In this document: in pieces, positions 15,859-40,672 of the stretch
Numbering within the stretch: position 1 is the first letter of the stretch
Layout of the letters: each line of letters starts with the position of its first letter
Assembly (NCBI RefSeq): GCF_012913485.1
Contig: NZ_CP051774.1
Location: forward strand, 744,001 to 808,000
DNA: 64,000 nucleotides
Source of the DNA: Luteolibacter luteus
GTDB taxonomy: Bacteria; Verrucomicrobiota; Verrucomicrobiia; Verrucomicrobiales; Akkermansiaceae
Reading direction: 5' to 3'
Notes under the pieces: generated by a model
Database searches by the model: none
Told to the model about the DNA's origin: nothing
What the model saw: the letters and a program-made list of their open reading frames with translations, nothing else
Translations under genes and position numbers: made by a program

Positions 15859-16467
15859 ATCCGGAGTAGCGAGCAAGGTCTTCCGAAAGAACGGGCAGTC
15901 CACTGGCACTGCGAGACGCCTGCCCTGCTTGACCGGCCGGGGACGCCCCGCGCTTGCTAGCAGTCCCGCGAACCATGAGTTCATGCGGGGGACGGAAATA
16001 ACAGTCCGTCTCCCCCTCAACGACCATCCTCCTTTTGCCAGAGGCCCTCCTCCCCAACACCTAAGGCGCGTCTTGTACTAGCCTAGTTTCCAACACTTGG
16101 GACAGATCCTCCATTTCATGGATAACTCGATGGCACCTTCTATCTCAACGGACGCTCTACTATCTTCTGGGTTGCAACCTGCATCCATGGGACCGAACGG
16201 CTGCCTAAGGTCAACGCGACAATTTCCGGCAATCTTCTCTTGGCGTCCCTACTTATCCGCGGCAACCGTGTCATTCTCTATTCCAGAAAGAACGACTTAT
16301 CCGCAAACCTCAAAGACAGCCCTCCTCCACCTCCTAATGAGAGGCGCACCAATCTCTTGAATACCTTCTTGGCGTAAAAATCCATTCTCGACCAAGGAGA
16401 GACAGAGCACCTCAACCAATAAAAAGAAGGGTCTGCGCCGGGGATATCACCCAAGCCATTCTCTGCA
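15859..16467. other. Non-coding or degenerate stretch at the left flank of the island
   Basis: No ATG-started gene is convincing here. In one frame, 16126-16377 is open for 83 codons without a start (DGTFYLNGRSTIFWVATC near its beginning, LLNTFLA at its end, stop TAA at 16375). It reads like a diverged gene remnant behind an in-frame stop at 16123. GC drops gradually through this stretch, which may hold the insertion junction. Confidence 0.4.
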
Positions 16468-16496
16468 TTGACGTCAGAAGCGCCAACTACTACACT
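16468..16496 (+). promoter_or_regulatory. Sigma-70-like promoter of the four-gene island
   Basis: TTGACG (16468-16473) and TACACT (16491-16496) are separated by exactly 17 bp. They lie 62 nt before the ATPase start codon. The sequence around it is AT-richer than the host background. Confidence 0.55.
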
Positions 16497-16557
16497 TCAT
16501 TTAAACATCAGGAACGCAAGATCGCTTCAAAGTGACTAGCACTGCAACCCTCGCCCT

Positions 16558-18522
16558 ATGATAGAAAATTGGATCGCGGCCAAACGCGTCATCGTAACTG
16601 GTGCCGAACGACTCTATCCTGACGGGATCGACTGGAATTTGTCTCCCGGCGTTAATGCCATCATAGGCGGCACCGGGTTAGGCAAGACCACCCTAGTCTA
16701 TGCCCTCCAATTCGCAATCTTCGGGAAGATGATCGTCGATTCAGCGGAACGAGTCGAAAAAGAATTTTTCAGGAACCGCCTTACTAACCGAGATGAATCG
16801 GAGACCAAGAAAGCTCCGCCCTTGGTTACTGTAGAATTCGACGTTGGGCCCAAGAAGTTCACAGTTAAGAGAAACCTTCTGAGCGGTGCCATAGTCTCCG
16901 CGAGATGTAACGAAAAGCCCCTCAACCAAAAGGGCTACGAAGCAGCTTTGCCACAAGCTATCGGGATCGATGGTGATTTTGCGAGTCTGTCAAGACTTCA
17001 GGGGAACTTGTTCTTCTTTGGCGAGAGTCGTCGCCTTCTGGCTTGGGAAAACCGACTGCAGCACGAACTCGCTAACCTCCTTCTCGCAGATCACGAGACT
17101 TATCGCCGGCTTGAGCATCTGTGGGGACAAGTAGAATCAGCTGACAGCTTTGCTCGAAACATTAGTTCCCAAGCTTCGCGACTCGAAAAGGATTTAGAAC
17201 AGCTAACCGCGAAAAATTCAAACGTACTTCAACTTGAGCAGCTGAGCAAATCCCAGCAACTCTCTCAAGAGAGGGAGCAAATGGAACTTCGAGTCAATTC
17301 CCTATCAAAAAAACTGGCGAATGATGAAAAGTTGAGTAAAGCGCAGGGCGATCATATCTCTATTTTGCAGAATAGATTCCACGAAGAACTTGCATCATTA
17401 GAAGACGCCATTGAGTCCCAATGGGACGACAATTTTCTAGCAACAGCGATCACTAGTCCGACGGCAGGATCAATAAGACACTCACTGGAAAAGTTCTACT
17501 TGGACCCTCGCGCTCGCGGGTGCCCTTGCTGTGGCCGTCCAGGAATGGAAGCGCACTTGGCAAAAATTGCAATAACTGCGGCTAAAGACGCCCAAAAGGG
17601 AAGTTGTATAATCTGCAATAAAGACATCGCTGAGCCAAAACCGAAAAAAAGCGAGGGCCTCAAGAATGCCCAGAAATCAACTGATATAAAAGCAGACCAG
17701 CTTCAGAAGCTCTTGTTCGAAAGGGAGCAAACTCTTAGCCGGATTAACGAATACAAAACAGCACTCAGCATCAGCCTCCAGCAGCTTGCAGTGATCTCAT
17801 CAGCAGAGCTGAAACACGCAAGAGAGAATCCTATTTCAGACGGTGAAAACCTGCGAGTCGCAATTTCGCAAATGCGGAAACGCGAAAGGCAAGCCAGAGT
17901 CGAGCGCGACAGACACCTTCTCCAACTCAACGAAGAGTTGGCATCCACCAACGAAGGCCTAGATCGAAAGAAATCGCTGATAGCCACTGCGTTCAAAAAA
18001 TACGCGACCCTGTATCTCGATGAATCCTGCGACGTGAAATTCCTAAATGAAACCGAGCTTCCGCGCAAACGAGGTCCACAGATCAAGGCTCCCCATGCTG
18101 CATTCTTTCCTGTTATCTCTGGTCAAACGAGACCGTCGGCACAAGCCCTTTCTGACGCACAGAGGTCCTTTGTAGACTTGGCTTTTCGAATGGCAATGAT
18201 CGACGTGTGGCATCAGGAGACAGATGGCACAATCACGATGATCATTGAAACTCCTGAGGGAGCCGTAGACATCGCTTACATGGAGCGCGTAGCTTCAATG
18301 ATCAGAAAATTCTCCGCCCAAGGCCATACGTTAATCATCACAACCAATCTGAACAACGAGATATTTCTTCCTCACGTTATGGCAAGACGCCCTTCAGATG
18401 AACGCGACAAGCATATCTTAAATCTTCTTGAGAAAGGCAACCCGCGCCCAGTCCAAAGAAAAAACAAGCCCTATTTTGACAGGATCCTCGCTTCAGTAAA
18501 GACTACCCCCAGAACAAGATGA
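16558..18522 (+). CDS. SMC/Rad50-like ABC ATPase with zinc-cysteine site (putative defence ATPase)
   Basis: A 654-aa soluble ATPase. The N-lobe has Walker A GGTGLGKTT (residues 37-45). The C-lobe has an ABC signature LSDAQRS (531-537), a Walker-B-like MIIETPEG with Glu564, and an Ala-Val-Asp D-loop. Between them lies a coiled-coil arm, interrupted by two cysteine pairs, C322/C325 (CPCC) and C350/C353 (CIIC), that could form a zinc finger or hook. The Walker B carries Glu-Thr where Rad50 has Asp-Glu, and the H-loop is ITTN. Its stop overlaps the next start by 4 nt. It is likely the motor or sensor of a defence module and may act on DNA ends. Closest families: Rad50, LmuB, ABC-3C ATPases; identity with none is claimed. 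Confidence 0.85.
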   Translation: MIENWIAAKRVIVTGAERLYPDGIDWNLSPGVNAIIGGTGLGKTTLVYALQFAIFGKMIVDSAERVEKEFFRNRLTNRDESETKKAPPLVTVEFDVGPKKFTVKRNLLSGAIVSARCNEKPLNQKGYEAALPQAIGIDGDFASLSRLQGNLFFFGESRRLLAWENRLQHELANLLLADHETYRRLEHLWGQVESADSFARNISSQASRLEKDLEQLTAKNSNVLQLEQLSKSQQLSQEREQMELRVNSLSKKLANDEKLSKAQGDHISILQNRFHEELASLEDAIESQWDDNFLATAITSPTAGSIRHSLEKFYLDPRARGCPCCGRPGMEAHLAKIAITAAKDAQKGSCIICNKDIAEPKPKKSEGLKNAQKSTDIKADQLQKLLFEREQTLSRINEYKTALSISLQQLAVISSAELKHARENPISDGENLRVAISQMRKRERQARVERDRHLLQLNEELASTNEGLDRKKSLIATAFKKYATLYLDESCDVKFLNETELPRKRGPQIKAPHAAFFPVISGQTRPSAQALSDAQRSFVDLAFRMAMIDVWHQETDGTITMIIETPEGAVDIAYMERVASMIRKFSAQGHTLIITTNLNNEIFLPHVMARRPSDERDKHILNLLEKGNPRPVQRKNKPYFDRILASVKTTPRTR

Positions 18523-19172
18523 GCGACCAATCTTTGGTTTTACTGGCGATTCTCGACTCGAATCGCAGGTTAGGCAACGGCGCAGTCAATCGTACAACCT
18601 TGGTGAAGCAAGTATTCTTGGCAGAAATCCTACGCCCCCTTTACAGGATATGGGAACAGCATTTCAATTTCTTTAAGTACAACCACGGACCATACAGTGA
18701 CGAGATATTCACAAAACTCGACACCCTAATGTTCAACGGCTTGGTCACCGCAGAAAGGTTTCGAAAGTCAAGATCGAGGATAGAGGGTCGCTACACGATT
18801 ACCGTGAATGGGATCAAACTTCTAGAGAAAACAGATCAACCTCAGATCCTGTCGCTCTCCAGAGATCTAATTTGGGCACTACAAACCCTAGGAATCGAAC
18901 AATCAAACTCGATCTGCAAGTTGGTATATGAAGAATCGGAGTTCGCGCAAGTGCTAGCAGATCACGCAAGAAGAGGGATTCCGTCTAACATTAAAGGCAA
19001 TCTTCCCGCGATCACGAAGGAGGGCAACGAGACCTTCATTGCCCTCTCTATATTGAAACAGCTCCAGAAGAGCGTTAGTCTGACTGACGTCTCTCTCTCT
19101 CTTCGAGAGACAACAAGACTCTTCTTAACCGCGCTAGCGCTGCGCGCGGCGCGCCACCGCAGTACCAATTAA
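18519..19172 (+). CDS. Winged-helix YwgA/Panacea-like protein of the island
   Basis: A 217-aa protein. Residues ~20-95 carry a pattern seen in YwgA and SocA/Panacea (DUF4065)-type proteins: LVKQVFLAEI, then HFNFFKYNHGPYSDEIFTKL, then LMFNGLVTAERF, followed by a wing (SRSRIEGRYTITVNGIKLL). The second half is helical with no clear motif. In ABC-ATPase defence loci a small middle component bridges ATPase and effector, and YwgA-like domains can act as regulators; either role fits. The start ATG overlaps the ATPase stop (ATGA) and the gene ends 9 nt before the nuclease start. The family call rests on pattern only. Confidence 0.7.
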   Translation: MSDQSLVLLAILDSNRRLGNGAVNRTTLVKQVFLAEILRPLYRIWEQHFNFFKYNHGPYSDEIFTKLDTLMFNGLVTAERFRKSRSRIEGRYTITVNGIKLLEKTDQPQILSLSRDLIWALQTLGIEQSNSICKLVYEESEFAQVLADHARRGIPSNIKGNLPAITKEGNETFIALSILKQLQKSVSLTDVSLSLRETTRLFLTALALRAARHRSTN

Positions 19173-19181
19173 GGTCTTCAG

Positions 19182-20303
19182 ATGAGCGAACCACTTCTTG
19201 ATCTATCCAAGCTAACGAATCACGCTCAGATGTTTTCTGCTAGTGCCGAAAGGTGCGGCTTCACATCTCTTGGCGAGATCAATCGGTTTATTTTTAAAAG
19301 CTACGGAAAAGCCATCCGATCGATTTCTCATGCTAGCCTTCCAAAAGGCGCGATTTTCATTCTGTCTCCCGCCCGTGGGGATGAACTCGCCTCTAATGAC
19401 TCTATCAGGGCAGCAGTAGCAAAGATAAGGTCTGATCATTCTAAGAAATTCTACCGAATCCGTGCCGACCTCTCTAGCGGCCTTCAGTTGGCTCACGAGA
19501 TCGAAAGCGAGGAAAAGAAGCAGATGGCGATGGGCGGATGGACCCCTGCATTTGCGATGAATGTGAGCAGAATTACAGGAGAATGTGTCGTTTGGGTCAA
19601 TGGCGTGAGTGCCTGTGTATACTTGGATGGCTTATGCTACATCGAGAGTCCTGACACGGTCGAAGAGATCGCGGCGGGAATACCAGGCAACTTTCAGTCT
19701 TTGAGCTGGAAGGATGGAGAACTGCTTTACGATTTTGCACGAAGCGAGCTGACAGATACCACGGCGACGGGCGTTTGGCATTCGCCCAATGGTTCTTTGC
19801 TCCGACCGAAACCGGAAAAATTAATGAGCTCAGCGCTTGGGAATTTCCTGCGATTTCGTATGGCCGGATACAAGCATCATGATGAGGAAGCTCACGTGGA
19901 GCACCAAGGACGAGCCGACATATCTCTTCACAGCTACAACGGATGCATATACATAGTCGAAGTCAAGTGGATTGGACGATCCCTTAAATCCACCAGGTTA
20001 TCGGAGCCGAGCAAATCCATAGAAGCTGAACTTAAAAAATTCACTTCTAGTTGGATTACCGAATTTGGAGACGAGGCATTTGAATCTGGCGCTAAGCAGC
20101 TCGCAAAGTACTTTGGAACGGGAAAATACGACAGGGCCTATCTAGCAGTTTTTGACTGCCGCCCTCCTGTCATCAAGAGAAAAAGTGAATCCCTTCCGGT
20201 TGATCCTCGCCATGTCGCCCCACATTCCTTGGACGATTTTTGCATCTACCGCGCTTGCGCCGATCCTCGCAAAGCATCAAAAGCGAGCAAGGCGGGCGAC
20301 TGA
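19182..20303 (+). CDS. PD-(D/E)XK-type nuclease candidate (restriction effector)
   Basis: A 373-aa protein. The first 190 residues are unlike anything I recognise. The C-terminal part has a PD-(D/E)XK core: a helix with Glu (EEAHVEHQG, about 235-243), Asp246 in GRADISLH, then Glu260-Val-Lys262 in IYIVEVKWIG. Near residue 310 comes an Ala-Lys-Gln-Leu-Ala-Lys-Tyr helix (GAKQLAKYF), a typical conserved Gln/Tyr position. These are the residues expected of a metal-dependent DNA endonuclease. It lies between the ATPase/winged-helix pair and a DNA methyltransferase, which argues for restriction activity. An AAGG sequence 8 nt before ATG 19182 is a good ribosome site. Catalysis is inferred. Confidence 0.72.
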   Translation: MSEPLLDLSKLTNHAQMFSASAERCGFTSLGEINRFIFKSYGKAIRSISHASLPKGAIFILSPARGDELASNDSIRAAVAKIRSDHSKKFYRIRADLSSGLQLAHEIESEEKKQMAMGGWTPAFAMNVSRITGECVVWVNGVSACVYLDGLCYIESPDTVEEIAAGIPGNFQSLSWKDGELLYDFARSELTDTTATGVWHSPNGSLLRPKPEKLMSSALGNFLRFRMAGYKHHDEEAHVEHQGRADISLHSYNGCIYIVEVKWIGRSLKSTRLSEPSKSIEAELKKFTSSWITEFGDEAFESGAKQLAKYFGTGKYDRAYLAVFDCRPPVIKRKSESLPVDPRHVAPHSLDDFCIYRACADPRKASKASKAGD

Positions 20304-20327
20304 GCCCACCAGCACTCTTAGAGAAAA

Positions 20328-21593
20328 ATGATTCATCTATCCTCTCAAGAATCATCGCCAAGTTTCCGGCCAGATTTTGCACCGAATGCTCAACTACCAC
20401 GACACCGGTGGTATCGGTTCAAAGAAGGATTCAGTGCAGGCTTAGTTTCTCAATTCGCCGCCAGTTATCTACCTAGAGAAGGGGCTCATCTTCTGGATCC
20501 TTTTCTCGGCAGTGGAACTACCGCTGTGGAAGGTGCCCGACTAGGGCACCACGTCGACGGGATTGAAACCAATCCATTCATGGCATTCATGGCAAAGGTA
20601 AAAACTCGCAATTACACGAAAACTGCTCGGCTAGATCTTGCCGCACTTGAGTGCCTTCGTTCTCGAAAAAGATGTGACCAGTTTAAGCTTCCTCGTGACT
20701 CAACACTTGTGGAACGAAAGGGGTTGGAAAAATGGCTTCTGAATCGTTCTGTAGCATTGAGATTTGAGCAACTCCGTAGCGCAATCTCTTCCATTCAACC
20801 CCTCGCGCGTCGCGATCTTCTCCTCTTCGCGCTTCTGTCTTCTGTTGAGGAAGTCGCCAACGCTCGAAAGGACGGCAAATGCTGGCGATACAAGAAGAAC
20901 TGGGAGTCCCTTGCATTTTCATCGAAGTCACTCGATGAATCTTTTGCTGCAAAAATCATCCATTTTATAGAAGATATCGAGATCTCACCAAAACTGAAAG
21001 GAAGCACCTCCATAACTCAAGGCGACTCGCGAAACCACTTCCACAAAGCGCATCGCAATGAGAGGTTTTATGATGGAATACTTACCTCCCCCCCCTACCT
21101 GAACTCTTTTGACTATACCGACATTTATCGCCCAGAGCTGCTTCTTATGAAGGCTGCGCAGAACTCTGAAGACCTTAGAAGGCTAAGGCTCCGAACTCTT
21201 CGTTCTCACGTTCAAGTTGCTTGGAAGCCGTCAGAACCACTAGGTATTCCACGTCTAGCAGAAAAAATTGAGGCAATCAAGGATGCCGGGCTTTGGTCGA
21301 GCCGCATTCCTGCCATGATCAATGCCTATTTTGTGGACCTTGATGCCGTTGTTACCCAATCCTCACAGTGCTTGAAGAAAGCGGGAACTGCGGGTTTTGT
21401 CGTCGCTGATTCCGCATATGCAGGAGTTGTTATACCTGTCGGAGAGATCCTCGGTGAGATTTTCGAACGCAGAGGTTTTCGCATAGAAAAAATTCATACA
21501 TTCCGACAAACGCGAGGAAATGGAAACCACCAACAACAATCTAAGGACCGCTTAAATGAGGTGATGGTCGTGGCAAGCTTTCGCGGTAATTGA
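20328..21593 (+). CDS. Site-specific DNA methyltransferase (m4C or m6A)
   Basis: A 421-aa amino-methyltransferase. The SAM motif I is DPFLGSGTT (residues 57-65), followed by the adenine-binding acidic residue in HHVDGIETNP. The catalytic motif IV is TSPPY (residues 253-257), the form common in N4-cytosine enzymes. Motif I precedes motif IV with about 190 residues between them, which could hold the target-recognition region (alpha-like order). A stop codon four codons before ATG 20328 fixes the start to this region. Following the nuclease by 24 nt, it would protect host DNA from the island's own effector. No methylation motif can be predicted. Confidence 0.9.
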   Translation: MIHLSSQESSPSFRPDFAPNAQLPRHRWYRFKEGFSAGLVSQFAASYLPREGAHLLDPFLGSGTTAVEGARLGHHVDGIETNPFMAFMAKVKTRNYTKTARLDLAALECLRSRKRCDQFKLPRDSTLVERKGLEKWLLNRSVALRFEQLRSAISSIQPLARRDLLLFALLSSVEEVANARKDGKCWRYKKNWESLAFSSKSLDESFAAKIIHFIEDIEISPKLKGSTSITQGDSRNHFHKAHRNERFYDGILTSPPYLNSFDYTDIYRPELLLMKAAQNSEDLRRLRLRTLRSHVQVAWKPSEPLGIPRLAEKIEAIKDAGLWSSRIPAMINAYFVDLDAVVTQSSQCLKKAGTAGFVVADSAYAGVVIPVGEILGEIFERRGFRIEKIHTFRQTRGNGNHQQQSKDRLNEVMVVASFRGN

Positions 21594-21625
21594 CTCCAAT
21601 CAAAGTGTTCGCCTGCTGACCAAAG

Positions 21626-22237
21626 TTACCCCCCCTTCAACCTCCCCAGATCCAGCTTCCGCGCAAACCCGAGCAGTTCCTTCTCCCCCGTCTCCTCATC
21701 CCCCGCGATCTCCACATAGATTCTCCCATCGACCACCATCTGCAGCTTGTGCTCGCCCTCCATCACCGCGGGTTCGCCGGAGATCCGGTGCACCTTGCGA
21801 TTGCTGGCCCGCAGCAGATCCTCATTCGCCAGCGTGACCATCAGCATCTTCACCAGCGGTGAATCCTTGATCACCTTCGCGGTCAGGCTGCGCTTCCCGG
21901 AATCCTTGTAGAGCCGGCTCAGGCAGATTCCCCCGCCGACCGCGCTCATGTCGTCGCGCTTCAGCGATTCCCCTTCCCACTGCTCCAGGAACTCCGGCAG
22001 GACCTCGCCGACCTTCGCCGCGCCCTTGTCCTCCATCAGCTTGATCAACTCGCGGAGCTTCGTCGTCACCGCCTCGTGATCCCCCTTTTTGTAATCCGCC
22101 ATCGCCTCCCGCATCCCCGACTCGAAGGCATCCGGCTCAGCGCCCCCCTTCTTCCCCGGCGGAGCCGCCGAAAGCCCCGAGGGCAAACCAAGAACCAGGA
22201 GAACCGGAAACAAGCACCGTGCGAAAGAAGTCTTCAT
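21626..22237 (-). CDS. Secreted protein of unknown function
   Basis: From ATG 22237 a 203-aa protein with a signal peptide (MKTSFARCLFPVLLVLGLPSGLSA). The mature part is charged and helical (MREAMADYKKGDHEAVTTKLREL), then LMVTLANEDLLRASNRKVHR and a closing beta segment KLQMVVDGRIYVEIAGDE. The helical half resembles a tetratricopeptide-like pair, but no family is recognised. An ATG two codons upstream (22243) is possible. It is convergent with the methyltransferase (32 nt apart) and returns to the host's high GC, so it marks the right border of the island. Confidence 0.75.
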   Translation of the reverse strand: MKTSFARCLFPVLLVLGLPSGLSAAPPGKKGGAEPDAFESGMREAMADYKKGDHEAVTTKLRELIKLMEDKGAAKVGEVLPEFLEQWEGESLKRDDMSAVGGGICLSRLYKDSGKRSLTAKVIKDSPLVKMLMVTLANEDLLRASNRKVHRISGEPAVMEGEHKLQMVVDGRIYVEIAGDEETGEKELLGFARKLDLGRLKGG

Positions 22238-27462: not shown

Positions 27463-29109
27463 TCAGAAATTCAGATTCAGCCCGAAATGGCTGCGATTTT
27501 CCGATTCGTCCACCCGCCAGCCATGGTCGAAGCGCAGGTCCATATGGTCCGTGATCCTCATCCGCAGCCCCAGTCCGGCACCGGAGACTGACGATGAAGC
27601 CCCCCTCCGGTCCTCCAATCCCGCGTAGTCGAAAAAGGTCAGAAAGCGGAATCCCCACTCGTCCATGGGGCGGATGACCGGCGTGAGCACCTCGACGCTG
27701 GCCAGCCAGCCACAGTCCGCAGAATACTCCCGTTCCGAGACACCTCGAACCGTCTGGTAGCCCCCCACGGAAAATTGCTCGGCGGGCAGCAGGCGGGAAT
27801 CCGCCACTTGGCCGGAGCCCCGCAGGTGCAGTTGCCAATCCGCACCCGGACTCCACCACGCATCGCCATTCATTCGCCCGATCACATAGGTAGCGTCCGC
27901 CGCGGGATCGTAGGCCTTGAAAGCACTGTCCTCATTGTTACCACCCAGCTCCATCGGTGCCGCCAGTAACGCCGAGTCGAGGGAGATCGAGCCACTCTCC
28001 CAAGTGCGGGAGATCTCGTGGCTCAGCTTCCCATTGAAAAACAAAACCTCCCCCGGTGACAGGGAGCTGCCACCGAAAAGCAGGAACTGGTCGGTGCCTT
28101 TTACCTCGAAGCCTGCGCTGAAGGATTGTCGCCAGGCCCCGAGCGAGGGCAGCGGGATTTTCTGGGCAGCCGCGAAGGACCAGGATGAGCCCTCGCTTTC
28201 CACCGGAAAGCCGTTGCTCGCGTAGCGCGAGAGCACCTCCGCATAAGCAGCATCGATCTGGAGAAGCTGATGGCTCGTGGCAAAGGGAACCTCCCAGCGG
28301 ATCGCGTTTGCCAGCAGTGAGGATGCCGGCATCCCCACCACGCTTTGCCACGCGATGAGATGGTCGTTCGGCGTCAGGCCGGCCACCCCCAGCAGGAAGC
28401 GATCCCGTCCCAGCAGGTCGGGGCCGCTGTTCTCGTAGCCCGTGGTCACTCGCCACGGCTTCGATTCCTCAAAGCCGATCAGAAAATCTGCGGTCGCCGG
28501 CTCGGCTCCCGGTGAGACAAAGAGGCGCGGATGGCGGAAAACCGTGCGTCCGTACCACGCCAGTTGCTCATCGATCTCCGGCCTCCGGATCGGCTCGCCG
28601 CTGGTAAGACGCAAGCCTTTCTGAAGGACTTCCGATGACGTCAACTTCGAGCGGGAGAGCCCGACATTCCCCACCTTGCCGATTTCCACATGGAGGACGA
28701 GCTCGCCCTTCGCCAGATCCTGTTGCGGGGCTTCCACCAGCACCACGGGAAAGCCCTCTTCATCAAAGTGGATCAGGATCTGATCCGCCAGATCCGCGAG
28801 ATCTCCCGCATGCAGCGGAGCTCCAAGCCATTTCTTCAAGCGCGCAGCAAGAGTACGGGGAGCGGGGACCCTCAGATCACTCCCACTTCTGAGACCCGGC
28901 GCGACTTCGCTTGCGACGGCCCCTTCGGTCGTCATGAGCGTGATGCTGCGCAGTTGATCGCAAAGCAAATCACCCTCGGCATGGGGCTCACCTGCCTCGA
29001 CCTTTGGCAGCGATTCTGGTGCCGGAGCCTCGGGTAAGCGCGGCTCCACCCCGGGGAGCGATTGCCCACGGGCGCTGGCGATCAGGAGAACGGCAAGGAT
29101 CAGGCGCAT
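27463..29109 (-). CDS. TpsB outer-membrane transporter (ShlB/FhaC/HecB family)
   Basis: Two-partner secretion pore of the Omp85 superfamily, 548 aa, outer membrane. The ATG at 29109 follows GGAGG at 12 nt and gives a signal peptide (MRLILAVLLIASARG); the longer frame opens with TTG. A POTRA-like region lies at about residues 75-180 (ALHAGDLADLADQILIHF), and a 16-strand barrel follows. The barrel motif RFLLGVAGLTPNDHLI and, near residue 440, LPAEQFSVGGYQTVRGVSE are the TpsB hallmark that docks the secreted partner. The last residue is Phe, as expected for an outer-membrane protein. The probable substrate is the TpsA-like protein 4.5 kb upstream on the same strand. Confidence 0.9.
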   Translation of the reverse strand: MRLILAVLLIASARGQSLPGVEPRLPEAPAPESLPKVEAGEPHAEGDLLCDQLRSITLMTTEGAVASEVAPGLRSGSDLRVPAPRTLAARLKKWLGAPLHAGDLADLADQILIHFDEEGFPVVLVEAPQQDLAKGELVLHVEIGKVGNVGLSRSKLTSSEVLQKGLRLTSGEPIRRPEIDEQLAWYGRTVFRHPRLFVSPGAEPATADFLIGFEESKPWRVTTGYENSGPDLLGRDRFLLGVAGLTPNDHLIAWQSVVGMPASSLLANAIRWEVPFATSHQLLQIDAAYAEVLSRYASNGFPVESEGSSWSFAAAQKIPLPSLGAWRQSFSAGFEVKGTDQFLLFGGSSLSPGEVLFFNGKLSHEISRTWESGSISLDSALLAAPMELGGNNEDSAFKAYDPAADATYVIGRMNGDAWWSPGADWQLHLRGSGQVADSRLLPAEQFSVGGYQTVRGVSEREYSADCGWLASVEVLTPVIRPMDEWGFRFLTFFDYAGLEDRRGASSSVSGAGLGLRMRITDHMDLRFDHGWRVDESENRSHFGLNLNF

Positions 29110-29369
29110 TTTTAGAAATCGCCTCCGGTGGAAAGCGAACCTTGGCAAAACATTAGCAATTCTTACCTATCAACGTAAAGAGAAAGAGATAATCAAATTT
29201 ATAAAAATTAGATCATTCAGAGGTCTTAATTTCTAAAAATAGAAGCTTCCAACTCCTTGGAACTATAAGGTTTCTCGGACTTCAAACCCAGTTATGGAAA
29301 ACATTACAAAAGCTGGACAAATCGCAAATTCGTTAGATAAATGGCGCAACACCTCACCCGCCCTCGGCT
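29110..29369. promoter_or_regulatory. AT-rich divergent promoter region of the tpsB / S8 genes
   Basis: This is a 260-bp, strongly AT-rich segment between two divergent genes, unlike its GC-rich surroundings. It has several TA-rich boxes (ATAAAAATTAG, CTAAAAATAG) but no clear consensus pair that I could assign to either direction. Confidence 0.5.
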
Positions 29370-30803
29370 TTGTCCAATATCACCGCAAAGATTAGCCGTG
29401 GACTGCTCGGTCCCTTCTTGGCTGCGCCTCTTTTGGTGTCGGCTCAGACGTCCTTCGACCGCAGCGCTCCGTTCCTAACACCGTCCCGGGCCACGATCGA
29501 AGATCGCTTTTCCCAATGGCGTCCTGCCGTGGCGAGCGCATCGATCACCTTGGAGCCAAATGGCGAGATCGCGGACGCCGGCTGGGCGCTCGCCCGCTTG
29601 AATGACGGAAGCAGCAGCTCGGAAATCCAATCCTTTGCCTATCCGGAGACCAGCACTCGCGTGCGTCTCTACCTGATCGACACCGCCGTCAAATACACCA
29701 GCGGATGGTTCGAGAAGAACCCCAAGCTTGCCTTCAAGGGCACCACACGGACCTACAGCAAGCCTACCGCCTCGAAGTCCTTCATTCACGGCACACGGAT
29801 GCTCGGTGTCATCGCGGGCCCCGAAACCGGAGCCGCGCAGGGAACCCCGATCGACGTGGTCAACTACGACGTCTATCCCGGTGTAGAACCGACCAACACC
29901 ACCGCGGGCCAGATCTGTAGTGCGATTAGCAAAGCTTACATCCACTATCTAACCACCACTCCCCGCCTCCCCAGCGTGATCTGCATTGCCGCCGGATCCA
30001 CGACTCCGGAAACGGATTACATCATGGAAGATTACATCAACACGGTGGTCCAGGAAGGGATCACCGTGGTGGTTTCCGCGGGCAACCAGAGCGCCGATGC
30101 TTCGGCCTACATTCCAGCCTCCTATGGAAAGCAAGCGGGAGTGATTTGCGTGGGTGCCACCGGAAAGAACAACCAGCGGCTCCCGATGTCGAACTACGGT
30201 TCTGCGGTGGATCTCTACGCTCCAGGCGAAGATGTCCGCACCCTCCGCTACTCCTCTCCAAAGAGCGGTTTCTACGATCTCATGGACGGCACCAGCCCCG
30301 CAGCGGCCCTGACCACCGCGGCCGCATTGATCAAGCTCTCCCAGAACCCGGCACTGACCCCCGTCCAATTGGAGCAAGCGCTAGTGGCTGACGCCTATAC
30401 TTCCGTGGCTCCGGCTGCGCTCGTGCAGGTGGCGCCCCCTGTTCCGGAGCTCGATACCGATGGCGATGGCGCGGCGGACGTGCTTGAGAATTTCTTCGGT
30501 TCGAACTCGAGCGACGCGACCAGCAAGCCAGCCGCGCCCACGATCTCCCTCGCCAATGGCCAAGCGAGCCTGTCCTTCAAGGTGGCCGCCACTTCCTTCA
30601 AATCCGAGAGCCCCTATTCGGTCGCCGGTGGTGGCACTTGGAAGGTGCAAGTTTCCAATGATCTGATCGCTTGGCAGGACGTCAGCGCCCCATTGATCCA
30701 AGGCGCCACGGCGGATGGAAAGACAACGCTGAGCGTTTCCGTTCCCGTCGGACCCGAAGCGAACTTCCTCCGCGTGGAGGTGAAGGGGCCGGAAGCGGAG
30801 TAG
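29370..30803 (+). CDS. Secreted S8 family (subtilisin-like) serine protease
   Basis: A 477-aa exported protease. The only upstream start is TTG 29370 (MSNITAKISRGLLGPFLAAPLLVSAQ is a plausible signal peptide). All catalytic residues are seen: Asp104 in YLIDTAV, His140 in SFIHGTRMLGVIAG, oxyanion Asn239 in VSAGNQSADA and Ser309 in MDGTSPAAAL. A thrombospondin-type-3-like acidic segment (LDTDGDGAADVLENFFGS) follows near residue 363, and a ~90-residue C-terminal beta domain with a VSNDLIAWQDVS phrase closes the protein. It lies between tpsB and the CHAT gene and may activate or release a partner in this locus. Confidence 0.9.
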   Translation: MSNITAKISRGLLGPFLAAPLLVSAQTSFDRSAPFLTPSRATIEDRFSQWRPAVASASITLEPNGEIADAGWALARLNDGSSSSEIQSFAYPETSTRVRLYLIDTAVKYTSGWFEKNPKLAFKGTTRTYSKPTASKSFIHGTRMLGVIAGPETGAAQGTPIDVVNYDVYPGVEPTNTTAGQICSAISKAYIHYLTTTPRLPSVICIAAGSTTPETDYIMEDYINTVVQEGITVVVSAGNQSADASAYIPASYGKQAGVICVGATGKNNQRLPMSNYGSAVDLYAPGEDVRTLRYSSPKSGFYDLMDGTSPAAALTTAAALIKLSQNPALTPVQLEQALVADAYTSVAPAALVQVAPPVPELDTDGDGAADVLENFFGSNSSDATSKPAAPTISLANGQASLSFKVAATSFKSESPYSVAGGGTWKVQVSNDLIAWQDVSAPLIQGATADGKTTLSVSVPVGPEANFLRVEVKGPEAE

Positions 30804-30952
30804 CCCGCGGCTTTTCCGGAGGCCGGGAAACCGCCTGAAGGCGGAATGATGGCTCGATCTGCCGGGTAGACTTGCCCGGCAGGCCGGGATCAGGAATGCT
30901 GTGGACAAGGGGCGGCTAGAAAAGCGCCCCGCGCCATTTCGCGTCCGCCAGC

Positions 30953-33661
30953 ATGTTGCTCCCCACCCGTCGTCTCCTATACCTGTCCGGCTTGTTTCTG
31001 CTGTCCGGGGTGCTGCGCGCGGCGGATCTCGATGCGGCCATATCGGCTAACGATCTCGAGGCTGCGGAGACCGAACTGGAGCAACTGGTCTCCGACTGGC
31101 GCACAGCCCGGGAGAAACAGCCGGGAGAAGAGAGCTCGCGTGAACTCGGGGTGACACTCCAAGCACTTGGCATCATCGAACGCCAGGCGGGCAAGCCGAA
31201 GGAGGCCCTGCCTCATCTGGAAGAGGCGATAAAGCTCTTGGCCAATGCAGACGCCGCAGCCCGGGCCGATGCCCTGGAAGCACTCGCCCTTACCCTGCAG
31301 GACCTCGGTGAAGCCGCGGCTGCAGAGACACATCTGCGCCAAGTCATCGAACTTCGCGAAAGCCTCCCCCAAGAAAACAAGGAGCCCTCCCTCTCCACCA
31401 GTCGCGATCACCTTGCGCTGAACTTGCTCGCCCAAGGCAAGTATGCCGGGGCCGATGAACTGATTCGCGAGAATCTCGCCAGGACAAGCCCGGAGGATAC
31501 GGAGGCCAGAGCCCGACGACTTGGCTATTCAGGACGCTATCTGCACACGATGGGCAGTCATTCACGGGCGGCGGAGGCTTTCCGCGAAGCCCTGGCCCTC
31601 CCATTTGAAAACTCGGAGCTCCGCCTTTCCTTGGAGAGCCAGCTCGCGCTCGCCCAATTGCGGCTTGGGAAAACCGACGAGGCGCGCAGGGGCATGGAAA
31701 AAGCGACAGAGGACGCTTCGGCCTTTTACTCGGCTCCGGGAGATTCCTTTCGCGCGGCCCCCTATTTGAACAGTCTCGGTGCTCTGGATCTCGCGCTAGG
31801 AAATCCGCTTCAGGCCCGGATCGCCTTCGCCGAAGCACTTGAGCTTCTGGAAACATCCTTGGGCTCCGATCATCCTTCCTTGATCTCCCCGCTCAACAAT
31901 CTGGGCTGTGCGGATCAGGCCGCGGGAAACTATGCGGAAGCAGAGAAAAGCCTCCGCCGTGCCGCAAGCTTGCAAGCCGCACATCTGCCGCGACTCCACC
32001 TGCGCGTCGCGGAAACGGCACGGAATCTCGCCCGCAATGCAGTGCTCTCTGGCACTCCGGATGCAGCCAAGGAAGTCGATGATGCCACCCGCCTCGGCCT
32101 GGGCCTGCTTGAGGAACTGATCGTCCACGGCACCGAACAAGAGCGGCTCAACTTCCTGCAACGGCTCGACCTCGTATCACTGCCCTGCTCGACGGGAGAT
32201 GCATCACGAATCGCCGACGTATTGATCGCCACCAAAGCCCGCCTGCTGGACTCGATGCTCGGTTCACAGGTGGAACACGCGGCCAAGGTCCAGCACTGGC
32301 GACAGGTCCAGTCAGCGATGAAGCCGGGGACGGCCCTCATTGATACTTGCCGCTACCTGACCGTCTCCCCCGATCCGGAGGAGCGCTACGGCGCGATTGT
32401 CCTGCTATCGGAAGGCGATCCCAAATGGGTGCCGCTGGGCAGTTCCGAAGACCTCCAACAAGGGCTCGACGCTTTCCGCAGACGGCTGTCGTGGAAGGCC
32501 GCCCAACTCGCGGGCAAGGCGACGACTCCGCCCGTGCTCAAACTGCGCGGCAGCCTGAGATCGCTTCACGATGAGTTCTGGGCACCGCTTGCGCGGGAAA
32601 TTCCAGATGACACCAAGCATCTTGCCTTTTCCCCGGACGGCGCGCTGCACTTCTTGCCTCTGCCCGCCCTCCTCGATGGATCCATGACCCCGCTCTGCGA
32701 GAACTATCTCCAGATCACCACGGTGACCAGCGCCCGGGATCTCTGCGGAGCTCCAACCGCGCACCCTCTCTCGGCCTCGCCATGGACTCTGCTGGGGGTT
32801 TCTTCTTTTCCCAAGCGGCAGCATCCTCCCGGCGAGGACCGCCTGCTCGGGCTGCTTGCGGAGCTCGATGACATGCCCGGTACCGCAGATGAACTGGCAC
32901 GACTCCGAGAGCTGGCACCAAAGGACTCCACCTTCCTGAATGACGCCGCTGCCACCGAGTCGGCTTTGAGGTCCCTGCCTCAAGCACCCGGGGTGCTGCA
33001 CCTCGGCTGCCACGCCTTCTTTCTATCAGGAGAAGCCAGGTCGGGTGATCCGCTGGATTTCGACGAGAATGCGGAGCTCCTCTTCTCCGGGGGCCTGCTG
33101 CTCCATCGCGCTGCACTGAGAGAACCCGACGCCCCGGCTCTCTCTCCTGATGACGACCTGCTCTTTCCCGTTGAAGTGGCGGACTTGCCGCTTCAGGGGA
33201 CCCGGTTGGTCACTCTTTCTTCCTGCGAGTCCGGAGCGGGCACGGCCGTCTCCGGCGAGGGCCTGCTGGGCCTGCGCCGCGGCTTCGCGCTGGCCGGCGC
33301 GCGGGAGGTTCTCGTCGCTCTTTGGCCCGTATCGGATCGTTCCACTCCGGAGTTCATGGAGCGCTTCTACCAGCTGGCCATCGCATCGGACCGCACAGGA
33401 CAAGCGCTATGGCAGAGCCAGCGGGAATTCCTCTCGAAAGCCAAAACAGACGATGAGTTCGAGGCAGCTGTTTTGAGATATGCCCCCTTCGTTCTGAGTC
33501 AGAATGAACCCTTGGCCACCGGTGGTGAAATTGTCGTGACCGGAAAGCGGGAAATCCCATGGAAAATGGCATGGGTGCTGGCACCCTTGCTGGTGTTCCT
33601 TGCGGCAAGGCAGGCGGGCCGAAGAAACAAATCCACCCCGGAAAAATCACCCGCCCCTTAA
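30953..33661 (+). CDS. TPR-CHAT protease-like protein with signal peptide and C-terminal membrane anchor
   Basis: A 902-aa protein with a signal peptide (MLLPTRRLLYLSGLFLLSGVLRA). Residues ~25-450 are tetratricopeptide-type helices (LEEAIKLLANA, TLQALGIIERQAGKPKEALPH). From about 560 to 850 comes a CHAT domain, the caspase/gingipain-like fold: His687 in VLHLGCHAFF and Cys758 in LVTLSSCESGAGT form the dyad. One hydrophobic helix (WKMAWVLAPLLVFLAA) and a basic tail close it. The sequence predicts a periplasmic domain, tethered at the inner membrane. Its stop codon TAA overlaps the tpsA stop in a TTAA palindrome. Substrate unknown. Confidence 0.88.
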   Translation: MLLPTRRLLYLSGLFLLSGVLRAADLDAAISANDLEAAETELEQLVSDWRTAREKQPGEESSRELGVTLQALGIIERQAGKPKEALPHLEEAIKLLANADAAARADALEALALTLQDLGEAAAAETHLRQVIELRESLPQENKEPSLSTSRDHLALNLLAQGKYAGADELIRENLARTSPEDTEARARRLGYSGRYLHTMGSHSRAAEAFREALALPFENSELRLSLESQLALAQLRLGKTDEARRGMEKATEDASAFYSAPGDSFRAAPYLNSLGALDLALGNPLQARIAFAEALELLETSLGSDHPSLISPLNNLGCADQAAGNYAEAEKSLRRAASLQAAHLPRLHLRVAETARNLARNAVLSGTPDAAKEVDDATRLGLGLLEELIVHGTEQERLNFLQRLDLVSLPCSTGDASRIADVLIATKARLLDSMLGSQVEHAAKVQHWRQVQSAMKPGTALIDTCRYLTVSPDPEERYGAIVLLSEGDPKWVPLGSSEDLQQGLDAFRRRLSWKAAQLAGKATTPPVLKLRGSLRSLHDEFWAPLAREIPDDTKHLAFSPDGALHFLPLPALLDGSMTPLCENYLQITTVTSARDLCGAPTAHPLSASPWTLLGVSSFPKRQHPPGEDRLLGLLAELDDMPGTADELARLRELAPKDSTFLNDAAATESALRSLPQAPGVLHLGCHAFFLSGEARSGDPLDFDENAELLFSGGLLLHRAALREPDAPALSPDDDLLFPVEVADLPLQGTRLVTLSSCESGAGTAVSGEGLLGLRRGFALAGAREVLVALWPVSDRSTPEFMERFYQLAIASDRTGQALWQSQREFLSKAKTDDEFEAAVLRYAPFVLSQNEPLATGGEIVVTGKREIPWKMAWVLAPLLVFLAARQAGRRNKSTPEKSPAP

Positions 33662-34764
33662 CGCTTCGTGCCACCGTCGCCACCTCGCATGCCGAAGAAG
33701 GAGGCACGCTGGAGCATCGGCTTGTTGCCACGGTCGTGACTGGCCACCTGCTGGGTCTGGCGCTTGCGATCACGTCCGCCATCCGCGTTCGCGGACATGG
33801 GCGTATTGTTGACCAGCATGCGGGATGAAGCCGCATTGGTTCCATCCGGACGCTTGAGCGCGGGAAGCTTGAGGGTCGAGGTGCTGATCGCGGAGGCGGA
33901 GTCGCCATCATTCCGCTCCAGCGAGGAAGCCTTCACCTCGAGCTTCCCGTTTACCGTGAGATTGCCGATGATGATGCCCTTGGAGTCCTTGGTCACCTTA
34001 CCGTTCTTACCTACCTCGAGAAAGATCCGTTGGGCACCGGTGCCGACACTGAGCGTACCTTCGTTGGAGATCTGTTTGCCCGCAGCGATCTCGATGTGGC
34101 TGGCGCGGGTCTTGCCCAGATGGAGCACGAAACCTTGATCGCCGGTTTGCTTGAGTCTCTGCGTGCCATCCCGCGAAATCTTCACTTCCGAGCCACCGGC
34201 AAGAAACGCGGCACCCTTCGCATTCAATTTCCCATCCTCGCGCAGTTCCACCGTGCGGCCAGCCAGTACGATGTCGCCATCCGTGGCCTTGATCGACCCT
34301 TCCACGATCAGATTCCTCATGGCTCCTCCGGAAAGCGTGAAATCGCCACCTCCCAAAAAGGCAGCCTTGTCGACATTGAGCGTCGAAAGGGTCACCGACT
34401 TCGCGGAGATGTCTCCGCTCACCACTAGCGTGGCGTTGGGCGAGAAGAAGCCCACGTTTCCATTCGAGGTCACGTTGCCGGAGAGCATGTTCACCCCGGT
34501 GCCATTCAGCATGTTGACCACGCTATCCCCGCCCACGAAGTCGAAGACAAGCTCGCTGCCGTAAGGAAGGTTGAACCCGTTCCAATCAAATATGGAATTC
34601 GAGTTGATGGTAAAAACCATCCGGGTGCCCGAAGGCGTCGCCTGCGAAACCCATGTAGCAGTACCCGGCGTGGAGAGCACGGGATTGCCAATGGTCTGGG
34701 CGTGCAGGGGTACAGTGAGGAGGGCCGGAATTAACCCGGCAAGGGGGAACAGGCTGGTTTTCAT
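33658..34764 (-). CDS. TpsA-like filamentous-haemagglutinin-type exoprotein (short)
   Basis: A 368-aa secreted protein with a signal peptide (MKTSLFPLAGLIPALLTVPLHA). The TPS secretion domain at about residues 30-150 shows SIFDWNGFNLPYGSELVFDF and VNMLNGTGVNMLSGNVTSNG, the NxxxFxx and NRV-like landmarks of FhaB/HpmA partners. A beta-helix region follows with Ser/Thr/Gly turns (NATLVVSGDIS, GDIVLAGRTVEL, KGIIIGNLTVNGKLEV). It ends with a basic, Arg/Lys-rich tail (GGRDRKRQTQQ). At 368 aa it is far shorter than adhesin-type TpsA proteins. Export by the TpsB encoded at 27463 is the natural guess. Confidence 0.82.
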   Translation of the reverse strand: MKTSLFPLAGLIPALLTVPLHAQTIGNPVLSTPGTATWVSQATPSGTRMVFTINSNSIFDWNGFNLPYGSELVFDFVGGDSVVNMLNGTGVNMLSGNVTSNGNVGFFSPNATLVVSGDISAKSVTLSTLNVDKAAFLGGGDFTLSGGAMRNLIVEGSIKATDGDIVLAGRTVELREDGKLNAKGAAFLAGGSEVKISRDGTQRLKQTGDQGFVLHLGKTRASHIEIAAGKQISNEGTLSVGTGAQRIFLEVGKNGKVTKDSKGIIIGNLTVNGKLEVKASSLERNDGDSASAISTSTLKLPALKRPDGTNAASSRMLVNNTPMSANADGGRDRKRQTQQVASHDRGNKPMLQRASFFGMRGGDGGTKR

Positions 34765-34803
34765 TTCGACGCGGGTTCGGTGGGACTTGGCGACCGCTCG
34801 TTA

Positions 34804-34821
34804 ATTTTGAAAATAAGGATA
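34804..34821 (+). promoter_or_regulatory. Shared AT-rich box, copy 1
   Basis: ATTTTGAAAATAAGGATA lies 56 nt upstream of the sigma-like gene, in its divergent region with tpsA. A near-copy is found upstream of the next gene (35792-35808), with one base fewer. Confidence 0.35.
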
Positions 34822-34877
34822 ACCTAGAGGCTTGCAAAGCATTCTTTTTTGGTATTTTCTACTTTCCGCTGCACCTA

Positions 34878-35798
34878 ATGTCCCCCGATCACCCCCAGAG
34901 ACACCTCGAAAAGTGTTGGGAAGCCTGCTGGCATCGCGCTCGCAGGCCGGTGGAAGGCGTGCTTGTGCCAGAGGAACAGGCGGCGGAAATCGCCGAGCGT
35001 GTCCTGCGGAATATCTGCCTCGATTATGAGGAGATGCCTCCCGAGGCGGAATTCGCCGCACGCGTGGTCCAGGAAACCGCCGAGGTCACCCGCGAACTCG
35101 TGGCCGGACAGCGCCGGAAAGTCGCGGATCCCCAGCTTCACCACGACCCTTCGGACCGCCGCTATCCCCAGAATCTCGATCTCGACCGCCTCCAGCATCT
35201 CCATCCCCAGCGTGGCTTCAGCGACGCCGAATGGAACCGCCTCCCCCGAGTGCTGCGCCCGCTGGCTCTCGCGACACTCAGTAAAAAGGGCATCCAAGGC
35301 CCTGACGCAGAAGACGTTTTCAACGACACACTTGTCGAACTCGTGCGCGAGCGGGAGGAAAGCCGCACCGCCCCGATCCAAGAACCCCGGGTCTTTGAAG
35401 AACTCATTCCCCTTCACTCCCGCATCGTCCAATTCCGCGCCATCGACTGGTTCCGCCGGCGTACCGCGCTGAAAAACCAGCCGAACTCCGGAGACAGCTT
35501 GGAAGCGATGACCGATGACCCGGATCGCCCTATCCAATTCGAGGATTCCTCCACCGGTCGCCTCAGCTTCGAGCAGATCTACGCCGAGTGTAAAGAGGCT
35601 CTGAGCAAGCAGGAGTGGCAGCTGATCTATACTCTGTACGTCGGACAAACGGCCACGATCCAAGATCTGATCATGGACGACGCCTTCTGCTCCCGGCTCG
35701 GCATCAAGGCCGGAGCCTCGGCGTCGACCCGCCGCCGGGCGATCAGCGAGATGGTCGAGGAAGCCCTCGATAAAATCAGGGAAAATTTAGTATTTTGA
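34878..35798 (+). CDS. Sigma-70-family-like (ECF-type) regulator
   Basis: A 306-aa protein. A region-2-like signature, DAEDVFNDTLVELVREREE (about residues 145-163), is followed by SRIVQFRAIDWFRRRTALKN (about 180-199), the usual core-binding and -10 recognition helices. The C-terminal half ends with a helix-turn-helix-like segment (MVGQTATIQDL-like: VGQTATIQDLIMDDAFCSRL and ASTRRRAISEMVEEALDKI), which fits region 4. The N-terminal ~110 residues are unassigned. It is divergent from tpsA and followed 40 nt later by a single-TM protein, as in sigma/anti-sigma pairs. The gene is close to the secretion genes, suggesting local control. Confidence 0.72.
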   Translation: MSPDHPQRHLEKCWEACWHRARRPVEGVLVPEEQAAEIAERVLRNICLDYEEMPPEAEFAARVVQETAEVTRELVAGQRRKVADPQLHHDPSDRRYPQNLDLDRLQHLHPQRGFSDAEWNRLPRVLRPLALATLSKKGIQGPDAEDVFNDTLVELVREREESRTAPIQEPRVFEELIPLHSRIVQFRAIDWFRRRTALKNQPNSGDSLEAMTDDPDRPIQFEDSSTGRLSFEQIYAECKEALSKQEWQLIYTLYVGQTATIQDLIMDDAFCSRLGIKAGASASTRRRAISEMVEEALDKIRENLVF

Positions 35799-35808
35799 AA
35801 ATCGGATA
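35792..35808 (+). promoter_or_regulatory. Shared AT-rich box, copy 2
   Basis: ATTTTGAAAATCGGATA overlaps the sigma-like gene stop and lies 30 nt upstream of the next start. It is a near-copy of the box at 34804-34821. Confidence 0.35.
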
Positions 35809-35838
35809 TCTCGGACTGCGATTGGAACCTTAACCTCC

Positions 35839-36435
35839 ATGCAACTCGAACTCCCAGAACGCCTCCTCGTCACCCGCGATGTTCTGACCCGCAGTCTCCT
35901 CGCGCACCCGGAAGAAAAGGCGCCTGCCATGCCGGCAAGCCTTGCTGCCGATCTGGCGGGCCGTTTCGCGCCGAAAGCCGCGTCTCGCAAGGATTCCGCC
36001 TGCATCTCCTGGCTGGATAAGGTGAAGAACTTCCTGGCGACTCCCGGCTTTGGAGCCGTGGCAGCAGCGGTGGTGGTGCTTGGCGTGGCCGTCCCGATGT
36101 TCTCGCAGGGAGATCATGCGGCACCCAAGGAAAGCTTCCGCGGCGGCGAGGCAATCGTCGCGACCGGAGAGCAGACCCGGATCTTCTTCGTCGGTGAGAA
36201 TGCCGAGATCCGCGCCGCCGTGGAGTCCTCCGGGAATTTCGAATCTTCCGCCTTGGCTACCGCGCCTAGCGTGGAGGCCGTGAAGGAAGAAAGAGGCGCG
36301 AAAGTCGTTGTCGATCTGAACACCGGCACGGTCACGGCCTATGGCGCTGACGGTGAAGCGCTTTCCCAGAAGATGATTCCCACCGATACCTCCAAGGTCG
36401 CTGGCGTCATCGCGAAGATGGTCGCGGGACTCTGA
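35839..36435 (+). CDS. Single-TM membrane protein, candidate anti-sigma factor
   Basis: A 198-aa protein. The N-terminal ~75 residues are soluble and helical, with an Asp/Lys-rich helix. One transmembrane helix (TPGFGAVAAAVVVLGVAVPMFS) follows at about residues 70-92, then an extracytoplasmic part rich in Ala, Glu and Lys (about 100-198). The topology, cytoplasmic N-terminus then TM then outer domain, and its place directly behind the sigma-like gene support an anti-sigma role. No ZAS-type His-Cys motif is visible, so this is an inference from context. Confidence 0.6.
   Translation: MQLELPERLLVTRDVLTRSLLAHPEEKAPAMPASLAADLAGRFAPKAASRKDSACISWLDKVKNFLATPGFGAVAAAVVVLGVAVPMFSQGDHAAPKESFRGGEAIVATGEQTRIFFVGENAEIRAAVESSGNFESSALATAPSVEAVKEERGAKVVVDLNTGTVTAYGADGEALSQKMIPTDTSKVAGVIAKMVAGL

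Positions 36436-39514: not shown

Positions 39515-40672
<1,158 letters not shown>

Follow-up and report, generated by a model that had tools for sequence, protein, structure and literature searches.

A conserved six-gene locus of Luteolibacter luteus joining two-partner secretion genes, a subtilase and a TPR-CHAT protease to an ECF-like sigma factor and a membrane partner

Gene content of the locus

The window analysed here, that is, the whole 64,000-nucleotide stretch comprising bases 744001-808000 of the Luteolibacter luteus sequence NZ_CP051774.1 (a single-contig genome of 6.41 Mb), contains six genes within 9 kb (27463-36435), all of which are present where the original prediction had placed them, as judged from the open reading frame list and Pfam searches (Table 1). 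The divergent AT-rich promoters of that prediction are also borne out, with the GC content of the TpsB/S8 gap falling in the lowest 0.1% of the window and that of the TpsA/sigma gap in the lowest 3%. A promoter motif shared across a sigma regulon was considered and rejected, the AT-rich TTTTNAAAA-like word common to both divergent regions being absent from the CHAT promoter; the second copy of ATTTTGAAAAT overlaps with the stop codon of the sigma gene. Within the 40-nt gap between the sigma and TM partner genes (window 35799-35838), a TGCGATTG-like element upstream of the TM partner start codon is conserved throughout the genus.

Table 1. Features of the six-gene locus, in window coordinates.
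Feature	Position	Strand	Length (aa)	Properties
TpsB	27463..29148	-	561	ShlB/FhaC-type outer-membrane transporter, POTRA_2 and barrel; Pfam ShlB 7.2e-16, POTRA_2 5.3e-6
TpsB/S8 divergent promoter region	29149..29369			36% GC; conserved blocks within the genus
S8 exported subtilase	29370..30803	+	477	Asp/His/Asn/Ser catalytic residues conserved; Pfam Peptidase_S8 3.1e-27
TPR-CHAT protease	30953..33661	+	902	Signal peptide, TPRs, CHAT with H687 and C758, C-terminal TM anchor; Pfam CHAT 3e-53
Mini-TpsA	33658..34764	-	368	Signal peptide, TPS domain (about 33-255), linker, tail RASFFGMRGG...KR
TpsA/sigma divergent promoter region	34765..34877			45% GC; conserved GCTTGCAAAGC..TTCTTTTTTAG block
ECF-like sigma factor	34878..35798	+	306	N-terminal extension of about 100 aa; profile-profile comparison with ECF sigmas
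Single-TM anti-sigma-like partner	35839..36435	+	198	Cytosolic N-terminus, TM 70-88, juxtamembrane ESFRG (R101), alpha/beta periplasmic domain

The flanking AI-2E, PPIase and leuB genes were rejected as members of the unit, being common to few genomes only, as were two genes on the other flank, which are common to 0 of the fetched loci. The leuB-like protein (window 39533-40672) is 97-98% identical to its versions in two close relatives (G003 and G015), and in the same comparison the product of the gene between the leuB-like and AI-2E genes shows 55-56% identity and CHAT 61-66%. Elsewhere in the window, positions 16001-22000 have a GC content of 0.49-0.51, compared with about 0.60 in their surroundings, and are possibly a horizontally acquired island.

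TpsB combines ShlB-type POTRA with an Omp85-like barrel, with Pfam matches to ShlB, POTRA_2 and Omp85 above cut-off, and its orthologues are linked to the locus within the genus. A signal peptide is predicted for the S8 subtilase, whose Asp/His/Ser catalytic triad is conserved in 17 of 17 aligned sequences. In most loci the S8 gene immediately precedes CHAT, and in three other families, too, the two genes are neighbours; the S8 sequence is divergent outside the genus. Outside the main group, S8 frames of about 1000-1140 aa are found (L089:3737-7057, L086:10223-13441, L088:10741-14169 and L159:2832-5798), in which 500-800 residues precede the subtilase domain, with weak beta-propeller SBBP matches in L086 and L159.

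The best-known CHAT proteases are cytoplasmic and linked to CRISPR. The protein encoded here is predicted to be exported, membrane-anchored and periplasmic, and this location appears to be kept by two different means, since the genus members have a signal peptide and, at the C-terminus, a hydrophobic helix with basic residues behind it, while the distant CHATs of L088 and L091 lack the helix and carry a lipobox instead (LLVSC and LLISC). The His/Cys dyad is invariant in 18 sequences; a single-sequence search of the CHAT domain against the PDB returned no match.

The fourth protein, originally described as a TpsA-like exoprotein, does have a TPS domain but is a mini-protein of 368 aa rather than a large exoprotein. 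A single-sequence Pfam search with mini-TpsA gave no match; with the family profile, matches to TPS domains of known structure were obtained, including those of HMW1 (2odl, 2.8e-18), EtpA (1.5e-16) and heme/hemopexin-binding protein (1.5e-15), with E values against the HMW1, EtpA and HxuA structures ranging from 2.8e-18 to 8.7e-14 over residues 33-255. Family members are about 350-430 aa long throughout and consist of the TPS domain, a low-complexity linker and a tail, the large repetitive exoprotein region behind the TPS domain being absent across the family. The C-terminal tail is predicted to be disordered and carries SFFGMRGG, part of the pattern R-x-S-F-F-G-(M/L)-R-G-G...KR that 29 of 30 members retain with minor differences. 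Its interpretation as a genome-wide sorting signal was rejected, as FFG(I/L/M/F)(R/S)G DNA patterns occur elsewhere at about the control rate. Mini-TpsA is a putative export substrate of TpsB, of a minimal TPS-domain type.

Conservation and linkage of the six genes

In the neighbourhood comparison across Verrucomicrobiota that the original prediction had called for, the gene set proved to be conserved in many genomes; its named carriers are Luteolibacter, Haloferula and Roseibacillus strains, alongside metagenome-assembled genomes of Akkermansiaceae and neighbouring groups. Among the close relatives, the gene order of the window recurs in six genomes (G003, G006, G008, G010, G012 and G015), is rearranged in three (G013, G014 and G017) and is split into modules in seven (G002, G004, G007, G009, G011, G016 and G027). 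The modules that are usually kept together are the divergent TpsB-S8 pair, TpsA-sigma-TM, and CHAT, with the exception of G016, where CHAT-S8-sigma-TM are grouped and TpsA-TpsB lie elsewhere. Outside the genus, the set is found in at least two more families: all six genes are present in L091 (family f2), TpsB-S8-CHAT on a short contig in L090 (family f3), and L096 (family f4) carries a collinear operon on a single strand, in the order sigma-TM-TpsB-S8-TpsA-CHAT.

Linkage is matched by co-occurrence, as assessed by profile searches of 384 genomes of the class. The sigma profile has matches in 14 of these genomes, and the TM-partner profile in the same 14 with one additional weak match. A CHAT orthologue is present in all 14 sigma-containing genomes, with a weak match in G054, and full-length mini-TpsA, defined by a match reaching through the C-terminal tail, occurs in 13 of the 14 and in 0 genomes elsewhere; in the remaining TPS matches the TPS domain alone is covered, most of them lying in frames of 1000-8500 aa. 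Co-occurrence is kept despite unlinked genes in five genomes (G007, G009, G027, G226 and G401). The exception is G001 (90% complete, 150 contigs), which contains TpsA-sigma-TM and in which CHAT, TpsB and S8 were not detected.

Scattering of homologues to unlinked sites, which had been named beforehand as the observation that would speak against a unit, does occur in a small number of genomes. In G007, G009 and G011, TpsA-sigma-TM is not linked to CHAT or TpsB-S8, and G027 has most of its parts at unlinked sites. However, all four genomes still carry every part searched for (in G027, all but S8 were searched for), and the unit is therefore not broken by scattering. Judged by linkage and co-occurrence together, which support the earlier proposal of one unit combining envelope parts with a sigma switch, the six genes are a real, conserved functional unit.

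The sigma factor, its membrane partner and cousin CHAT loci

In single-sequence searches, the sigma factor shows a weak match to sigma70-ECF (E 0.003), and both it and the TM partner of the window remain below the NCBIfam and Pfam family cut-offs. In profile-profile comparison, unambiguous ECF sigmas are matched with a probability of 96 and an E value of 1.6e-9 over 179 columns, with a sigma2-sigma4 architecture, and the AlphaFold model (pLDDT 84) has sigma factors as its top Foldseek matches, at E values of 0.05 or above. The TM partner gene adjoins the sigma gene in the mapped sigma loci.

The TM partner has one TM helix and an alpha/beta periplasmic domain that is confidently folded by AlphaFold (pLDDT above 94) and for which a fold search returned no convincing match. 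Between the two lies a juxtamembrane linker modelled with low confidence, as would be expected for disorder, and otherwise variable in sequence. Within this linker, R101 is the sole fully invariant residue of the protein, found in 31 of 31 sequences (which are related and so represent fewer than 31 independent observations) at pairwise identities down to 14%. It is embedded in the motif (F/M/L/I)R(G/S/D/N), 7-20 residues past the TM helix; on shuffling of the linker, such a motif arises in 10% of trials.

Cousin loci in other families of Verrucomicrobiota (L171-L175) place a CHAT protein with a signal-peptide-like N-terminus beside an ECF sigma factor and a TM protein. Four of the five TM proteins match the NCBIfam ‘anti-sigma factor’ description at E values of 3.6e-8 to 8e-5, below the family cut-off, and the cousin anti-sigmas have R-G or R-D-G near the membrane (IMRG, AVRG, DTRG, TTRDG). 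The TM-partner profile matches these cousin proteins at E 1.2e-5, an alignment in which FRG falls on MRG, and at 7e-7 with a broader set. By these profile comparisons, the TM partner is distantly related to anti-sigma factors of the NF052375 type. TPS genes were not found near the cousin CHAT-sigma-anti-sigma loci; from these loci and the profile match, a core of CHAT, ECF sigma and TM anti-sigma seems to be older than its association with TPS.

Other gene associations were seen around the cousin CHATs. TPR-CHAT adjoins a bacterial alpha-2-macroglobulin of ~1950 aa in L165 (863-6772), L172 (3974-9805 and 12828-14218) and L174 (6944-8325 and 11568-17405), and in L172 and L174 an ECF sigma/anti-sigma pair also lies beside CHAT. 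In L166 (9118-15582) a Ser/Thr protein kinase domain is followed by many TPRs and CHAT in one protein of 2155 aa, and a CHAT frame of comparable length occurs in L167. Plasmid CHAT loci, cyanobacterial and other, were rejected as relatives of the TPS-linked system, as the five examined lack annotated TPS genes.

Proposed roles of proteolysis and export in release of the sigma factor

The original prediction had a proteolytic cascade at the envelope switched on by the sigma factor. The evidence favours the opposite arrow, in which proteolysis probably activates sigma, since the TM partner, itself related to anti-sigma factors, carries an invariant Arg-Gly site next to the membrane. The reading preferred here, to which a probability of about 0.4 is assigned, is that the six genes make up a module for envelope signalling and secretion, centred on a periplasmic CHAT protease by which the anti-sigma is cut and the sigma factor freed. 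The TM partner would hold sigma at the inner membrane, and a change in TpsB/mini-TpsA export (its start, its stalling, or trimming by S8) would free or activate CHAT. CHAT would then cut the anti-sigma at the invariant (F/M/L/I)R-G in the disordered juxtamembrane linker, as the site-1 cut of regulated proteolysis, upon which sigma would be released. The mini-TpsA tail, SFFG(M/L)R-GG, which resembles the anti-sigma site, would be the other substrate of CHAT, a competitor or a trigger, and would in this way couple export to the switch. The cut sites so predicted lie after R101 in the TM partner and after R360 in mini-TpsA. Arginine at P1 is known among clan CD proteases, namely gingipain-R, MALT1 and separase (PMC4626109), and a cut after R101 is therefore reasonable; CHAT proteases, however, need not be Arg-specific.

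The same proteases may instead do no more than mature and release mini-TpsA, with sigma and anti-sigma controlling expression in the direction first proposed. Such a regulated two-partner secretion system is possible, if rather doubtful. It would account for the persistence of the divergent TpsB-S8 pair in split loci and for the conserved TpsA tail with its basic residue, by way of which processing of mini-TpsA is in any case plausible. It also has precedents in the stepwise processing of Bordetella FhaB by DegP, CtpA and the surface protease SphB1 (PMC8263021) and in the control of a TPS pair by the ECF sigma VreI in Pseudomonas (PMC2729926). Against maturation alone speak the cousin loci that pair CHAT with sigma/anti-sigma and have no TPS genes found nearby, and the location of the invariant Arg in the anti-sigma.

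The enzyme that cuts the anti-sigma could also be S8, with CHAT directed at S8 or something else. With its predicted signal peptide, intact triad and position directly upstream of CHAT in most loci, S8 is a candidate site-1 protease, yet a profile search found no S8 near L171-L175 and its sequence diverges outside the genus; S8 is the less likely cutter compared with CHAT, and this arrangement is considered improbable. Cleavage might not be involved at all. Conserved short linear motifs often act as docking sites, and the Arg-Gly motifs could serve binding or topology while the TM partner senses through its alpha/beta domain, the confident folding of which would suit such a role. However, the linker is modelled as disordered and varies in sequence apart from the motif, and the TM partner is linked genetically to two exported proteases; signalling without proteolysis is likewise regarded as improbable.

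The locus that comes closest to the CHAT-centred reading is the CASP pathway of type III-E CRISPR, in which the TPR-CHAT protease Csx29 cleaves Csx30, an inhibitor of the ECF factor CASP-sigma, between residues 427 and 429 and thereby relieves the inhibition (PMC10028731). In both systems a TPR-CHAT protein is tied genetically to an ECF sigma and its inhibitor, which here is a putative one. The CASP protease is activated by RNA through Cas7-11, whereas the CHAT described here is predicted to be exported and membrane-anchored, its inhibitor has a TM helix, and its partners are TpsB, mini-TpsA and S8; Pfam identified no Cas7-11 (gRAMP)/RAMP or other Cas protein among the six genes. The combination of a single-TM anti-sigma bearing a periplasmic domain with a periplasmic protease recalls DegS/RseA/sigma-E, although the candidate protease here is a caspase-fold CHAT (or a subtilase) rather than a DegS-type serine protease.

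Compared with type Vb two-partner secretion (FhaC/FhaB, HMW1, HxuA, EtpA), the locus has the expected TpsB with POTRA and barrel and a partner with a TPS domain, but this partner is a mini-protein with a conserved C-terminal tail and without the large exoprotein domain. Pseudomonas PUMA3 (VreA-VreI-VreR, with the TPS genes PA0690/PA0692) likewise links an ECF sigma and anti-sigma to a TPS pair; here CHAT and S8 are added, mini-TpsA is the putative substrate, and Pfam identified no TonB-type receptor with a signalling domain, of the FecA/FecR/FecI or PUMA3 type, among the six genes. Bordetella FhaB shares with the locus a TPS substrate served by several envelope proteases, SphB1 acting at the surface, and differs in its large prodomain, in lacking a CHAT-type protease and in having no sigma switch inside the locus. 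No description of the present system was found in the open-access papers searched, nor any that joins a CHAT domain to ShlB or hemagglutinin.

More tentatively, the TPS system may double as a sensor, with the mini-exoprotein and the membrane anti-sigma sharing one type of R-G motif for a single periplasmic CHAT, so that the state of export would determine how active a dedicated sigma factor is. A CHAT/ECF-sigma/anti-sigma core would then be widespread in Verrucomicrobiota and differ in its envelope inputs, with TPS here and alpha-2-macroglobulin elsewhere. If an exported, membrane-anchored CHAT is indeed tied to sigma and anti-sigma, the CASP principle, in which a caspase-fold protease frees a sigma factor, would extend to envelope signalling, and the model supplies concrete cut sites in both candidate substrates. 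A TPS substrate that hardly reaches beyond its secretion domain is unusual, and could reveal how export itself is sensed.
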